From positions 1 to 32,253 of the forward strand of contig JAVYMA010000022.1 of NCBI GenBank assembly GCA_038740345.1: DNA of 32,253 nucleotides. Reading direction: 5' to 3'. The stretch comes from Methanomassiliicoccales archaeon (GTDB lineage Archaea; Thermoplasmatota; Thermoplasmata; Methanomassiliicoccales; UBA472). Shown here one piece after another: positions 3,685-9,795 of the stretch; position 1 is the first letter of the stretch; each line of letters opens with the position of its first letter. A model generated the notes under the pieces. It made no database searches and was not told the DNA's origin. It worked only from the letters and a program-made list of their open reading frames with translations. The translations under genes and the position numbers were made by a program.

Positions 3685-4542
3685 TTAACAAGATAATCCT
3701 TTTTCCAATATCAATGACAATCCTCTCATATCCAAATCGCTTACTATTTGCAATAAAGCATTATCTAAGCTAGATATCCATATTTTCCTGATATCATCAA
3801 CACGTTTTGGAAACAATTTTCGAGAGCCAAGGCTAAGACTGTCTTCTTGCGGAATATGAAATTCAATCATAGGTATTACTCCCAAGCACGGCAGTCGCAT
3901 TTTTTTCTCTATTTCTCTTATGCCAGGCTGAAGAATTGTGGGATCTCCTCGAAAGCGATTGATTATAAAGCCCCTTACCATTTTTTTATGATGTTCATTC
4001 AATAGGTAATAAGTTCCGTATAGCGCAGCAAAAACACCTCCCCTGTCAATATCACCTATTAAAATCACTGGTGCCTTTGCCAATTCAGCTGTCCTCATAT
4101 TAGCTATATCTTTTTCAAATAGATTAATCTCGGCAGGTGAGCCAGATCCTTCTATGATAATCGTATCATATTCTTCCAATAATTTGTTGTAACATTTACC
4201 AACCACTTTCATTAAATCCCCTGTTGGAAGCGATTCGCAACCCTTACCAAAGTTAGCGTAAGGCTTGCCCTCGAGAACAAGCTGGATAACACCATTGCCG
4301 CTCGGTTTCAATAAAATAGGATTCATCTCAACTCTGGGCTCAATACCGCAAGCTATGGCCTGAAATGCCTGAGCCATGCCCATTTCTTTTCCATCGCGGG
4401 TTACAAAGGAATTCAAAGATAGGTTCAACGCCTTGAAAGGGGCTACACTTTTTCCTTTCGCTGCCAAATATCGGCAAAAGAGCGCTGTCACAGTAGATTT
4501 GCCTGCCCCAGAACAAACTCCCTGAAACATTATTGAACTCAA
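3685..4542 (-). CDS. CobQ-type ATPase domain protein lacking the glutamine amidotransferase domain
   Basis: The 285 residues match the N-terminal ATPase half of adenosylcobyric acid synthase: P-loop GVCSGAGKS at 8-16, then FKALNLSLNS, EMNPILLKPSG, IIIEGSGSPAEINL, GDIDRGGVFA and FRGDPTILQPGI. It stops about 30 residues after the domain, so the GATase domain with its catalytic Cys and His is absent. There is no visible frameshift and the family motifs are intact, so it looks functional rather than decayed. The start is TTG at 4542, overlapping the stop of the upstream full-length gene (TTGA); a GGAGGAG sequence 7 nt upstream supports it. An in-frame ATG at 4530 is the alternative. It may partner the upstream CobQ or amidate a different substrate with ammonia from elsewhere; both are inference. 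Confidence 0.85.
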   Translation of the reverse strand: MSSIMFQGVCSGAGKSTVTALFCRYLAAKGKSVAPFKALNLSLNSFVTRDGKEMGMAQAFQAIACGIEPRVEMNPILLKPSGNGVIQLVLEGKPYANFGKGCESLPTGDLMKVVGKCYNKLLEEYDTIIIEGSGSPAEINLFEKDIANMRTAELAKAPVILIGDIDRGGVFAALYGTYYLLNEHHKKMVRGFIINRFRGDPTILQPGIREIEKKMRLPCLGVIPMIEFHIPQEDSLSLGSRKLFPKRVDDIRKIWISSLDNALLQIVSDLDMRGLSLILEKGLSC

Positions 4543-6350
4543 TCAGATACTCCTCCGACTTCAGGAATAAGATAACGCAAAATCAATCTCTTTTTCATAA
4601 TTCTAGCCACTTCAGAAATGCTGTTTTCAACAGCGCTATCGAGATTTTTCGCTTCTTCAAAATGAGATTTTCTATCTGCTTTGATGAGAGAAATTACATG
4701 CTGCCTAAATGCAGGTAGGTCAAACACTCCATGAAGGTAAGTTCCCAGAACCATTCCATCTGTAGAAACCGAGCCTTCATGATAGCCCCCATCCGAGGTT
4801 ATGTAGAAAACTGGAGCTTCAAGGCTAGTTGTCCTCCCCATGTGTATCTCGTATCCTCTAACTTTCCCTCCTTTTCCTAAAAGAAGTTCACCCTCCACTT
4901 GAACTGTTCTTTTTTCCTTTGAGTCAAATACCGTCTGAGCTTGAAGCAAGCCTATTCCTTCCAAAGATCTTGATTGACCCCCTTCCAATCCATACAAGTC
5001 ATGAATCTCAGTACCAAGCATTTGATACCCCCCACAAATTCCTATGATCGGCATTTTGCCTTTCAAGGAGCGAATCTTTTGAGATAATCCCCTTTCATTC
5101 ATCCAGATCAGATCTTGAACGGTGTTCTTAGTTCCAGGTATTATTATTAAATCGACATTATCCAAGTCATTAGGATCATCTATATACACCACAGATATGC
5201 CTTCTTCTAATGTGAAAGGATCGAAATCAGTAAAATTGGATATGCGAGGCAGTCTTATGATGCCTATCAAGGTAGTACTATCTTCTTTAGCGCCTTTATC
5301 CTTCAAAAACATTGAATCTTCGGTTGGAAGCTCTAAATCAAGATGCGGCAATACACCCAGAACCTTTATTCCCAATTCCTTCTCTGCCTTCTTTATACCG
5401 ACTTCGAGAGTCTCATGATCTCCATGCATATTATTGATGATTACCCCTTTGAACTTCTTTCTATCCTCTTCGTTGAGTAAGAGCAACGTACCGTAAAGAT
5501 ATGCAAAAGCCCCACCCCACTCAATGTTCACCACTAAAATACAGTCAGCATCGGATATCCTCGCAGTGGGAATGTTGGCGATCTCCTGATCGCCAAGATT
5601 AATCTCTGCCGGGCTGCCTGCACCTTCAATGATGACAAAATCATTGCTTTTAGATAGTATTTCAAAGTTACGTTTTATTATCTCTATTCCTTTACTCCTA
5701 GCAAAAGAACCATAGTACTCCTGTACATCCATATCTTTGTAAGGACGGCCTTCGACCACCACTTGTGATATCGCATTTCCCTTGGGTTTTAGCAATATGG
5801 GATTCATCGCCGCAATCGGCTCAGCCCTAGCGGCTCTAGCCTGCAATTCTTGCGCCCTTGCGATTTCTTCTCCATTTTGCGTGATATATGAGTTCAATGA
5901 CATATTCTGCGATTTGAAAGGAGCAACCCGAAATCCCAGGTCAGCCAATATTCTACAAAGACCCATGACCACAAGCGATTTACCTGCTCCCGATGTGGCA
6001 CCCATTACCATAATTGACCTTGCTCTTTTGCGGAATTTTATATCCAATATTCCTTTTACTTCCTCTTTTGCAGGTCTCGGTTGTCGACGAAACAAAGAGT
6101 GCATTTCATTAGTCACATCCGCTCTGTGCAACCAAAAGCATTTCTTGCAACTCCATATCCTTCTACCATCCTTTCCTATCACAAACTCGCCTAATTCATT
6201 ATCAAAGCAAGGATATAGTGGACAATAGCAAAAAGTGCAATCTTGTCCGGGGAAATGACAAGGGTAATATTCACAGGTTTTATTGCTGCCTTTGATCGGC
6301 CCGCAAATCTCCGATTCGACCTTGGTTTCGAATCTCATTCTGCTCAGCAT
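4539..6350 (-). CDS. cobQ: Cobyric acid synthase with N-terminal cysteine-rich domain
   Basis: This enzyme amidates four side chains of adenosylcobyrinic acid a,c-diamide using glutamine and ATP. Residues 16-72 hold a Cys-rich module (CEYYPCHFPGQDCTFCYCP, CFDN, WSCKKC) that resembles the archaeal 'cysteine-rich small domain' (Pfam PF04071), probably a metal or Fe-S binding unit. Residues 112-345 are the ATPase (P-loop GATSGAGKS at 117-125; IIEGAGSPAEINL). Residues 385-560 are the class I GATase-like domain, with nucleophile Cys439 in GICGGYQ and His540 in YLHGVF. At 603 residues it is longer than standard CobQ (about 480-510) because of the N-terminal fusion. The start at 6350 lies about 26 nt from a TATA box, so the message may be leaderless; the ATG at 6338 is an alternative. 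No other cob/cbi gene is in the window. Confidence 0.92.
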   Translation of the reverse strand: MLSRMRFETKVESEICGPIKGSNKTCEYYPCHFPGQDCTFCYCPLYPCFDNELGEFVIGKDGRRIWSCKKCFWLHRADVTNEMHSLFRRQPRPAKEEVKGILDIKFRKRARSIMVMGATSGAGKSLVVMGLCRILADLGFRVAPFKSQNMSLNSYITQNGEEIARAQELQARAARAEPIAAMNPILLKPKGNAISQVVVEGRPYKDMDVQEYYGSFARSKGIEIIKRNFEILSKSNDFVIIEGAGSPAEINLGDQEIANIPTARISDADCILVVNIEWGGAFAYLYGTLLLLNEEDRKKFKGVIINNMHGDHETLEVGIKKAEKELGIKVLGVLPHLDLELPTEDSMFLKDKGAKEDSTTLIGIIRLPRISNFTDFDPFTLEEGISVVYIDDPNDLDNVDLIIIPGTKNTVQDLIWMNERGLSQKIRSLKGKMPIIGICGGYQMLGTEIHDLYGLEGGQSRSLEGIGLLQAQTVFDSKEKRTVQVEGELLLGKGGKVRGYEIHMGRTTSLEAPVFYITSDGGYHEGSVSTDGMVLGTYLHGVFDLPAFRQHVISLIKADRKSHFEEAKNLDSAVENSISEVARIMKKRLILRYLIPEVGGVSD

Positions 6351-6380: not shown

Positions 6381-6600
6381 ATTTAATTTAGTCAAAAATT
6401 TCAGGGCCATTTGTTATAATATTTAAAAATTATTTATTTTGATTTTTAGGTTATTATGAGAATTCAAAATAAATAATGCTTGATTATTAGCATGTCTAAA
6501 ATGTAAATATCCATTTCACTAAAATTCTCAGCTTGCCCGCTTTTTTTGGTACATTTTATGTATGAAGTATCTTTTTTGTCTCGGCTTTGGTTTTCATTAG

Positions 6601-6612
6601 AAAAGTATTTAT
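6601..6612 (+). promoter_or_regulatory. TATA box before the structured segment upstream of dnaG
   Basis: AAAAGTATTTAT resembles a BRE plus TATA box. A start about 25 nt downstream would fall near 6631-6633, just before the GC-rich structured segment and about 200 nt before the dnaG start codon. Confidence 0.45.
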
Positions 6613-6631
6613 CCGGCTTTTGTTGAATAGG

Positions 6632-6816
6632 GACAGAAGGAAAAACACTTCGGGCCAAGGCCTGAATAGTGTCTAATCATGATCACTATCACCCATTCAT
6701 CACATCCTAATGAAGGATACGTCAATGATTGGTGCGAAAAGGACCGCTAGGGCTCCTTAGGGGGTTTGCCCGGGAAAATCATTTAGTTCGGGCTAAGCGG
6801 CTACGGATTGTTTTTC
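6632..6816 (+). ncRNA. Candidate structured RNA (stand-alone or dnaG leader)
   Basis: This segment is clearly GC-richer than the AT-rich DNA before it and has no credible ORF. Visible pairings: ACACT/AGTGT around GGCC-AA-GGCC (6645-6672); alternatively ATAGTG/CACTAT (6666-6689); ATCCT-AATGA-AGGAT (6704-6718); GGGC/GCCC (6750-6771); CCGCTAG (6744-6750) with CTAAGCGG (6793-6800, one bulged A); and AATGATT (6724-6730) with AATCATT (6777-6783). The last two interlock and would form a pseudoknot. A TATA box lies 25 nt upstream and a T5 run at 6811-6815 follows. I could not match it to RNase P, SRP, 5S RNA or a riboswitch I know. It may be a separate RNA gene or the 5' leader of dnaG. Confidence 0.5.
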
Positions 6817-6836
6817 CATAAGAAAGAGGAGATTCA

Positions 6837-8255
6837 ATGAACATTGATCCTAGTACAACAAAATATTTGATTAAGGCAAAGCTGAATGCCGATGGAATCG
6901 TAGAAAAACCTGATGTTGTAGGTGCTATATTTGGACAAACAGAAGGCCTGCTCGGTGATGAGCTAGACTTGCGCGATCTTCAAAAGAGTGGACGCATTGG
7001 AAGGATTGAAGTTGATGTCCATTCGAAGCAGGGCAAATCTGAAGGGGATATACTCATCCCATCCTCTCTTGATCAGGTAGAAACTGTAATCCTTGCCTCT
7101 GCTTTAGAAACAATCGATCGGGTAGGACCTTGCAAAGCGAGGATAGTCGTAGATGGGATTGAAGATGTTCGCGTCGTAAAGAGGACCAAAATCATCGAGA
7201 GGGCGCGGGAACTCCTTACCGAACTTATAAAACAATCCAAGTCGTCAGGTATTGATCTCACTGAGAGTGTTAGGCAATCGGTGCAGGTTGAAGAGATCAT
7301 TTATTATGGAAAAGAAAGATTGCCTGCAGGACCAAATGTACCTGATTCCGACGCGATAATTGTGGTAGAGGGACGTTCAGACGTTCTAAATCTTTTAAAA
7401 TCTGGTATAAAAAATGCGATTGCTGTGGAAGGCACTAACATTCCTAAAACCATAAGCGATCTTTCCAAAGAAAGGGTAATCACCGCTTTTGTAGATGGTG
7501 ATAGAGGAGGAGAGCTGATATTGCGTGAGCTGTTTCAAGTGGCAGAAGTTGACTTCGTGGCTCGTGCACCGCGTGGACATGAAGTTGAGGAGCTAACTCA
7601 AAAACAGATAATGAAATGCCTTCGCAACAAAATCCCTGCCGAACAATTCATTGAGATGTTTGGTCTCGAGGGCGACCAATTATTCAAATCTGGAAATGGC
7701 GAAAAACGAGGCGTTAAGGATCTAGATGCTGCAGAGAAAGCTGAGCGAGCAGAAAAAGCTGAGCGCTCAGACCGTTCTGAGAAGGTCGAAAAGGTAGAAA
7801 AACCAGAGAAAGTAGAAAGGCAAGAAAAGCAGCGCGAAGAACGAGCTGAAAGAGTAGAGAGAGCGGAAAAAGCTGAGAGACAGGAAAAAGAGAGAGCGGA
7901 AAAGAATGAATTGGCAGAAGAATCAACTGAAGAGAGAAAGGGCTCAGGGAAGAAGTTAAACGCCGCTCAAGAGAAGTATAAAGGCATGATAAATGAGCTC
8001 TCCACTACATCTAAGGCTAGACTCCTGAATGCGAGTGGATTGGTCATAAAAGAGATTCCTGTTAAGGAATTAGCCAACACTCTTAAAGAAGGAGTTGAAG
8101 GTGTGAGTGCTGTAGTATTCGATGGAATAGTCACACAACGTATCTTAGATATTGCAGCGGAGCAGAAGATAGGTACCATAGTAGGTACTAAATTGGGGAA
8201 TATCACCAAACAACCAGCGAATGTCGATGTTTGGACTAAGGAAGATCTAAATTAA
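6837..8255 (+). CDS. dnaG: Archaeal DnaG-like primase
   Basis: Archaeal DnaG is a TOPRIM-domain protein with primer-synthesis activity in some species and association with the archaeal exosome, where it supports poly(A)-preferring RNA decay. The N-terminus ([33 protein letters not shown]) is typical. The TOPRIM domain spans about residues 170-250, with Glu178 (VEGRSD) and Asp220/Asp222 (DGDRGG). A highly charged linker fills about 297-366, and a conserved C-terminal domain (about 374-472) follows. Start ATG 6837 has GAGGAG 5 nt upstream. At 472 residues it is in the usual or slightly long range. It is followed after one base by an AAA ATPase gene, likely in the same transcript. Confidence 0.95.
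7725..7934 (+). repeat. Low-complexity charged linker encoded in dnaG
   Basis: About 70 residues (297-366) consist almost only of Glu, Lys, Arg, Ala and Val in short degenerate units such as AEKAER, SEKVEK and AERVER. Predicted structure would be a long single helix or coiled coil. The reading frame continues cleanly into the conserved C-terminal domain, so it is a genuine protein segment and not a frameshift artefact. Confidence 0.8.
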
Positions 8256-8256
8256 A

Positions 8257-9795
8257 TTGAGTGATATGCACCAACCTAAACTCCCTGACCTGACAAAAAT
8301 ATCCTCAACTGCAGAAGTCGAGATTCCGCAAGACCCACTTCTAAGAGTAATTGGACAGGATGAAGCGGTGGAGATAGCACGAATCGCCGCTAGACAACGG
8401 CGACATTTGTTGTTAGTCGGGCCACCTGGAACGGGTAAAAGCATGATAGCTCAAGCGCTTGCCTTACATCTCCCACCCCCTAACGAAGAAATAAGAGTGG
8501 TCCATAACCCAGAGAATCCAGAAAGACCGATGGTGGAAGTAAAGAAAGCAGATGAGGTGAAAAGGGAGAGAGAGTCACGAGAATTCGCTGGAGGAGACTT
8601 AATCGACCCTAAAAATGCACCTATAAATGTCGCTGAACGATTAGGCTATAGATGTCGAAATTGCGGAGAATATTCATCCTACAAAGAGAGATTCTGCCCT
8701 AAATGTCAAAAGCCTAAACTAGGAGAGTCCATAGGTTTCGCAGGTAATCCCTTCGGCGATTTAATGTCAACCTTGTTAGAAAGTTCCATAACAGTACAAG
8801 GAATCTCGTCGATTCCTATTGGTAGAGAAAGGGTCACTACTACTCGCAATCGCTTTGGAAAAGAGGAGGTGGTGGTTTTCGAACGTACGGGAGATATGAT
8901 CCGCGTACTTGATCAGGAGGCTTTGGAAAAAAGGAGAGAGTTAGAGAAACAGAGGCCGCGAAAAGTTATTGTGCCACTTGAGCGAAATCCTTTCGTAATG
9001 GCCACCGGAGCAAGTGAAACAGAACTTCTTGGCGACGTGCGCCATGATCCTTATGGTGGACACCCTCAACTCGGCACTCAGCCATTCGAGAGAGTCATTC
9101 CTGGTGCGATTCATGAAGCTCATCAAGGCGTTCTTTTCATTGATGAGCTTTCACACTTAGGAAATTTACAACGATATATATTGACAGCGATGCAGGAACG
9201 CCGCTTCCCTATCTCAGGACGGAATCCTCAATCTTCAGGAGCGAGCGTGAAAGTGGATTCTGTGCCATGTGATTTCGTGTTTGTGGGAGCCTGTAACATT
9301 CAAGATTTAGAGCACATCCTGGCTCCCCTTAGGTCCCGCATAAATGGTAATGGTTATGAAATACTCGTAAGAACAACTATGGAAGATACCCTGGAAAACC
9401 GATCCAAGCTTGTCCAGTTTATTGCTCAAGAGATCTCTATTGATAGAAGAATACCTCATGCATCAATTGAGGCCGTTCACTCTATAATAAAAGAGGCAGC
9501 TCGGAGGGCTAAGGATCTAGATGGACAGCAGCATTCTCTGACCCTTAGGCTACGTGAATTGGGTGGACTGATCCGTGCTGCCGGCGATCTAGCTGTTCAT
9601 GAAGGAAGTCATTTAATTGAGCCTGAACACATAGAAAGAGCGATAAAAAGAAGCAGGACGGCTGAGGAACAAATTAAAGAGCGCTATGGTTCATACACTA
9701 AAGGGCTTGGCAGCGATCTCAGTTCATCTCAGAAAGAAAGATCACCCTATTATTTTTGGAATGAAACTAGAGAAGATGATCAAATGTTTCATTGA
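8257..9795 (+). CDS. Lon-type AAA+ ATPase without protease domain, with inserted zinc ribbon
   Basis: The N-terminal VIGQDEAVEIARIAARQRRHLLLVG and Walker A GPPGTGKS (55-62) match the AAA module of archaeal LonB-like proteins. Walker B is FIDEL (294-298), sensor 1 lies in GACN (about 347), and a C-terminal helical lid carries LRLRELGGLIRAAGD. Between them is an insertion with a zinc ribbon C133-x2-C136-x10-C147-x2-C150 and a basic region. The protein ends at 512 residues, without the Ser-Lys dyad protease domain of Lon and without obvious membrane segments. The start is TTG at 8257, one base after the dnaG stop; ATG at 8266 is an alternative. Adjacency to dnaG suggests a nucleic-acid or quality-control role, but this is inference. 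Confidence 0.85.
   Translation: MSDMHQPKLPDLTKISSTAEVEIPQDPLLRVIGQDEAVEIARIAARQRRHLLLVGPPGTGKSMIAQALALHLPPPNEEIRVVHNPENPERPMVEVKKADEVKRERESREFAGGDLIDPKNAPINVAERLGYRCRNCGEYSSYKERFCPKCQKPKLGESIGFAGNPFGDLMSTLLESSITVQGISSIPIGRERVTTTRNRFGKEEVVVFERTGDMIRVLDQEALEKRRELEKQRPRKVIVPLERNPFVMATGASETELLGDVRHDPYGGHPQLGTQPFERVIPGAIHEAHQGVLFIDELSHLGNLQRYILTAMQERRFPISGRNPQSSGASVKVDSVPCDFVFVGACNIQDLEHILAPLRSRINGNGYEILVRTTMEDTLENRSKLVQFIAQEISIDRRIPHASIEAVHSIIKEAARRAKDLDGQQHSLTLRLRELGGLIRAAGDLAVHEGSHLIEPEHIERAIKRSRTAEEQIKERYGSYTKGLGSDLSSSQKERSPYYFWNETREDDQMFH

Follow-up and report, generated by a model that had tools for sequence, protein, structure and literature searches.

A probable structured leader of the archaeal dnaG mRNA, with a covarying closing stem and a UCAY array, across much of Thermoplasmatota

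To our knowledge, few structured mRNA leaders have been described in archaea. The mRNA leaders through which a protein controls its own synthesis include those of ribosomal protein genes, e.g., the L1 leader, and the Bacillus trp leader represents the TRAP type, in which tandem (G/U)AG repeats are read. The fluoride (crcB) riboswitch is a leader RNA found in both archaea and bacteria (PMC2864571). The archaeal DnaG protein harbors an N-terminal RNA-binding domain with a preference for poly(A) and is a member of the exosome cap (PMC4227792). Literature searches for a leader of archaeal dnaG returned nothing relevant.

The window analyzed here is a 32,253-nt stretch of DNA from a Methanomassiliicoccales archaeon, namely, contig C22 of a 1.8-Mb genome that is 99% complete (G000). 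The segment of interest lies in a divergent intergenic region between cobQ (minus strand, 4539-6350) and dnaG, whose product has a Toprim domain, matches NCBIfam NF003108 with 553 bits (cutoff, 300), and has its closest named relatives among Methanomassiliicoccales archaea. The exosome core protein Rrp41 is encoded in the same genome. An initial annotation had described the segment as GC rich, endowed with its own TATA box, ending in a T5 run and able to form a pseudoknot, and had proposed that it is either an undescribed archaeal RNA gene or a structured leader controlling both dnaG and the AAA ATPase gene behind it. The features that we assign to the locus are as follows.

6600 to 6612, plus strand: BRE-like GAAAAG and TATA box TATTTAT (GAAAAGTATTTAT), read from the sequence.
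6639 to 6647, plus strand: 5' strand of the closing stem P1, A rich (GGAAAAACA), from the arm-swap tests.
6651 to 6664, plus strand: local hairpin CGGGC/GCCTG, with outer pairing of CACT (6646-6649) and AGTG (6668-6671).
6660 to 6666, plus strand: inner part of P1, 5' side (GCCTGAA), partner of 6787-6793.
6677 to 6703, plus strand: UCAY array (UCAU 6677, UCAC 6683, UCAC 6689, UCAU 6697, UCAC 6700), from motif density and spacing.
6704 to 6718, plus strand: hairpin P3 (ATCCT-AATGA-AGGAT), from the comparison of 49 representatives.
6787 to 6793, plus strand: inner part of P1, 3' side (TTCGGGC), from the swap test and the RNAalifold consensus of the f1A group.
6809 to 6817, plus strand: 3' strand of P1 (TGTTTTTCC), including the T5 run, from the arm-swap tests.
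6826 to 6831, plus strand: Shine-Dalgarno sequence GAGGAG of dnaG, read from the sequence.
6837 to 8255, plus strand: dnaG, coding for the archaeal DnaG primase/exosome subunit, preceded by the element.

In DnaG itself, a long repetitive, charged linker (window 7720-7980) separates the Toprim part from the C-terminal domain. An AAA ATPase gene (8257-9795) abuts dnaG; its product is similar to the ATPase portion of archaeal LonB (TIGR00764, below the cutoff), gave no protease-domain match, and is possibly an ATPase-only LonB relative cotranscribed with dnaG. On the other side, the full-length cobQ product has a Cys-rich, zf-like domain at its N terminus (PF04071), and a short second CobQ-like ORF (3685-4542) shows by eye an N-terminal CbiA-type domain only. 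In the f11-like genomes L113, L243, and L244, a tRNA gene (Rfam tRNA, 51.8 bits) is located near dnaG, beyond the leader region.

The upstream TATA box proposed initially was present, as GAAAAGTATTTAT at 6600-6612, approximately 27 nt 5' of the P1 5' strand. Transcription very probably starts just before P1, the predicted start being at about 6632-6638. TATA-like sites precede the element in 115/119 relatives, while only 13% of cases have one between the array and the ATG. The description as GC rich holds relative to the A+T-rich upstream DNA (G+C of 0.41-0.50 versus 0.18-0.32) but not relative to coding sequence (0.36-0.49). Likewise, the T5 run exists at 6811-6815, yet it forms the 3' strand of P1 and is probably no free terminator tail; across the order, the longest T run of this U-rich strand varies between 2 and 7. 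Both pairings of the presumed pseudoknot can be drawn in the window, and neither is conserved in relatives of the same genus: AATGATT (6724-6730) with AATCATT (6777-6783) drops from 7/7 pairs to 5/7 and 3/7, and CCGCTAG (6744-6750) with CTAAGCGG (6793-6800) drops from 6/7 to 5/7 and 4/7. Folded alone, the segment barely surpasses its shuffled versions (z = -1.58; 14/200 shuffles as good), and the case for structure rests on comparison.

The segment was correctly judged to resemble no known RNA class, as neither the window nor 20 homologous loci gave an Rfam 15 match to it at the gathering threshold; on the homologous loci, neighboring tRNAs were the sole matches. Models of archaeal RNase P RNA (RF00373) and archaeal SRP RNA (RF01857) did not match the segment, and the genome has its own copies of both (G000:C17:35262-35559 and G000:C21:15852-16163, respectively).

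We compared the DNA upstream of dnaG in about 180 genomes, drawn from the order and from its phylum (Thermoplasmatota only), with 119 upstream regions from six families representing Methanomassiliicoccales. By BLAST, the segment was found in 14 of 61 genomes, its own included, each time adjoining dnaG. The same layout, i.e., TATA box, A-rich strand, UCAY-rich array, hairpin, variable domain, U-rich strand complementary to the A-rich strand, Shine-Dalgarno sequence, and ATG, recurs in each of these six families; without exception, the element is on the dnaG strand. A profile of the conserved part detected the element in 40/147 genomes of the order, having been trained on families f1, f5, f3, and f6 and missing the distant f2, where the element was recognized by position and layout. 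All strong profile matches were at dnaG, and four weak ones (E about 1e-3) were elsewhere. Farther away, perfect closing stems of 11 to 18 bp (G-U pairs counted) are located at the equivalent position in f8, f10, f23, f33, and f36 and in named Thermoplasmata records. Their sequences have changed, as in G227 (TGAAAAATGGCACTTTAT/ATAAGGTGCTATTTTTTA), G292 (GGGAAAAATGGTCATCCT/GGGATGACTATTTTTCCC), G268 (TTTGAAAATAGCACTTCA/TGAAGTGCTATTTTCGGA), and L244 (CGAAGAACAGC/GCTGTTCTTCG), G-U pairs being counted here as well. In the genomes examined from f9, f7, and f15, we did not find the element, indicating that DnaG can do without it. Among relatives, the element is conserved in position and layout, and its P1 arms covary.

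This covariation was assessed with an alignment-independent arm-swap test, in which the 3' arm regions were exchanged among representatives of different genera or subgroups. The core of P1 pairs GGAAAAAC (6639-6646) with GTTTTTCC (6810-6817). In the order, true arm pairs had a mean of -26.7 kcal/mol compared with -21.5 ± 0.53 for swapped arms (z = -9.7, 0/1000), the test with 11 representatives of other families gave z = -5.6 (0/1000), and all representatives together gave z = -13.0; because of kinship, these tests comprise fewer independent cases than their counts suggest, but the controls are subject to the same kinship. None of the control pairs, 5' region versus middle, array versus 3' region, and promoter-upstream DNA versus 3' region, was significant. 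When the 5' region was divided, its distal part (z = -4.6) was significant, as was its proximal part (z = -7.6, 0/2000, with 16 nt tested for pairing to the 3' region), and pairs inward of the anchor motifs GGAAA/UUUCC gave z = 7.1. RNAalifold, applied to separate genus or family alignments, recovered the closing stem and P3 among the groups listed. The 5' end of P1 is close to the predicted transcription start, and its 3' end precedes the ATG by about 20 to 30 nt in the order (about 19 nt in G000); in other families it ends at about -12 to -41 relative to an ATG that, in some distant genomes, was located with tblastn and could be misplaced by a few codons. The length of its U run differs among lineages. 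Altogether, the comparisons argue that P1 is maintained by compensatory changes.

The P1 5' strand also pairs above chance with the stretch just before the array (z = -4.6, 0/2000, 49 representatives), and in many lineages this local hairpin excludes part of P1. Such an arrangement is that of a two-state leader, and both states, P1 and the local hairpin, may occur. The array is a second hallmark: at least three TCAY motifs within 34 nt were present in 116/138 upstream regions and in 1.1% of shuffles. Successive motifs were 6 nt apart in 159 cases, where shuffles predict 0.7, an excess that is partly due to selection, since the array was located by density. Its invariant core is UCACNAUCAY. Downstream of the array, P3 is moderately supported: a contiguous hairpin of changing sequence is found in 46/49 representatives, beating shuffles at p ≤ 0.05 in 20/49, and swapping its halves gave z = -2.2. 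P1, its covariation, and the array at 6677-6703, all absent from the initial annotation, are the strongest features of the segment.

Other candidate pairings were considered and discarded. Pairing of the array with the downstream half (CACUAUC/GGUAGUG, noticed in f5) was not significant (z = -1.6; against the 3' region, z = -1.5), and a 3' local hairpin, b:b', gained no support. Sequestration of the Shine-Dalgarno sequence by an anti-SD-like UCACC in the array fits, by eye, only f8 and part of f1. In family f2 (Methanomethylophilaceae), a candidate Shine-Dalgarno hairpin, CACCC-AGGA-GGGTG with variants, is visible by eye right after P1; its swap test was not significant (z = -1.6).

Of the two proposals made at the outset, that of a leader is upheld, and that of an independent gene has become much less likely. 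The element holds a conserved place upstream of homologous genes, on their strand and behind a promoter. TATA-like sites before but rarely after the element, together with a P1 end close to the ATG, point to a 5'-UTR element rather than a mobile RNA gene. As the pseudoknot pairings are not conserved, the T5 run belongs to P1, and the strong profile matches are at dnaG, a 5'-UTR element is the most likely reading of these sequences. We therefore consider, with high confidence, that the segment is a conserved, cis-acting structured 5' leader of the dnaG mRNA over much of Thermoplasmatota.

A leader of this kind might be a small-molecule riboswitch, with a metabolite binding the loop and switching P1. 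A terminal stem and a mutually exclusive local hairpin are the usual riboswitch layout, and the element is single copy and gene associated. We nevertheless regard a riboswitch as unlikely, because what is conserved at the core of the element is a short single-stranded motif, repeated at somewhat variable spacing, and not a set of conserved loops forming a compact pocket. In addition, the array shows no significant long-range pairing, and the element is carried by one gene instead of a metabolic pathway.

We assign a similarly low probability to an independent or processed noncoding RNA that is cotranscribed with dnaG and acts elsewhere, e.g., bound to the exosome, with read-through of the U run yielding the dnaG mRNA. 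Such an RNA would agree with the promoter, the presence of a closed terminal stem close to the predicted 5' end, the U-rich stretch at the end, and the fact that P1 encloses almost the entire RNA. However, its location should not depend on dnaG, and the 147 genomes yielded none away from that gene apart from the four weak matches. There is, moreover, no space for another promoter before dnaG, and the U run is inside a stem and missing in some lineages.

A regulatory site acting at the DNA level, with operator repeats just 3' of the transcript start, is improbable: the array is a tandem direct repeat a few tens of nucleotides downstream of the TATA box, but operators leave the covarying complementary arms more than 100 nt apart unexplained. 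Within the array there is a small open frame (MITITHSSHPNEGYVNDWCEKDR, 6679-6750). Attenuation by a leader peptide translated from it (MITITHSS, ATG at 6679) is hardly credible, since the frame is open in most G000-like and f5 sequences but start codon and frame are not conserved, the ATG being missing in f2, f3, f4, and some f1 and f5 members that retain the array, G002 having an early stop, and no Shine-Dalgarno sequence preceding the ATG; given its absence in f2 to f4 and the early stop in G002, the frame is probably a by-product of RNA conservation.

A folded element in the dnaG leader that is shared by much of the phylum and matches no known RNA family suggests that these archaea control DnaG through RNA itself. 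KH domains, for example those of the Nova proteins, recognize sites of the UCAY type, and Rrp4 of the exosome cap has a KH domain; we therefore favor protein-mediated feedback on DnaG. P1 closes the leader beside the ribosome-binding site, with the array and P3 in its loop. An RNA-binding protein may read the single-stranded array and/or the A-rich strand and thereby tip the leader toward closed P1 or toward the local hairpins; this, in turn, would alter access to the Shine-Dalgarno region, mRNA decay, or read-through at the U-rich strand. DnaG itself with the exosome cap would be the likeliest reader, resulting in feedback control of DnaG, and the main alternative would be a KH-domain protein. 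We give about even chances to the explanation as a whole, a dnaG leader with protein-mediated feedback, and hold the step that involves DnaG and the exosome only tentatively. More speculative still is a phylum-wide switch: the exosome cap (DnaG, perhaps together with Rrp4) would read the array of its own leader, or a leader-derived RNA would be a partner of the exosome. Our literature searches found no published specificity of DnaG for UCAY, the reported preference being for poly(A), and exosome iCLIP identified a AAATTTTTTA motif, not UCAY, at -30 of 5'-UTRs (PMC7667871).

If true, this proposal describes a feedback circuit linking RNA decay and the DnaG subunit, for which no described counterpart was found in Rfam and literature searches for dnaG. 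Shared by much of the phylum and located on the gene for an exosome subunit with a dual role, primase-like and exosomal, the leader offers a directly testable regulatory circuit. The element would also add an RNA family to a group to which the gut methanogens Methanomassiliicoccales belong.

Among known systems, archaeal RNase P RNA and SRP RNA are comparable as archaeal structured RNAs of about 300 nt, and differ in that they reside at other loci and do not match. The fluoride riboswitch (PMC2864571) is likewise a cis-acting structured leader occurring in archaea, whereas the dnaG element has neither a sequence or structure match to it in Rfam nor a recognized conserved ligand pocket. Closer in kind are protein-autoregulated leaders, e.g., the L1 leader, which share with it a structured, single-copy 5'-UTR directly before the start codon of a gene for an RNA-binding protein; dnaG, in contrast, is not a ribosomal protein gene, and its element combines a covarying closing stem with a UCAY array and has no Rfam family. 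Finally, TRAP-type leaders such as the Bacillus trp leader similarly display tandem short RNA repeats at near-fixed spacing beside alternative hairpins, with the difference that the repeat of the dnaG element is UCAY rather than (G/U)AG and is usually present in three to five copies.
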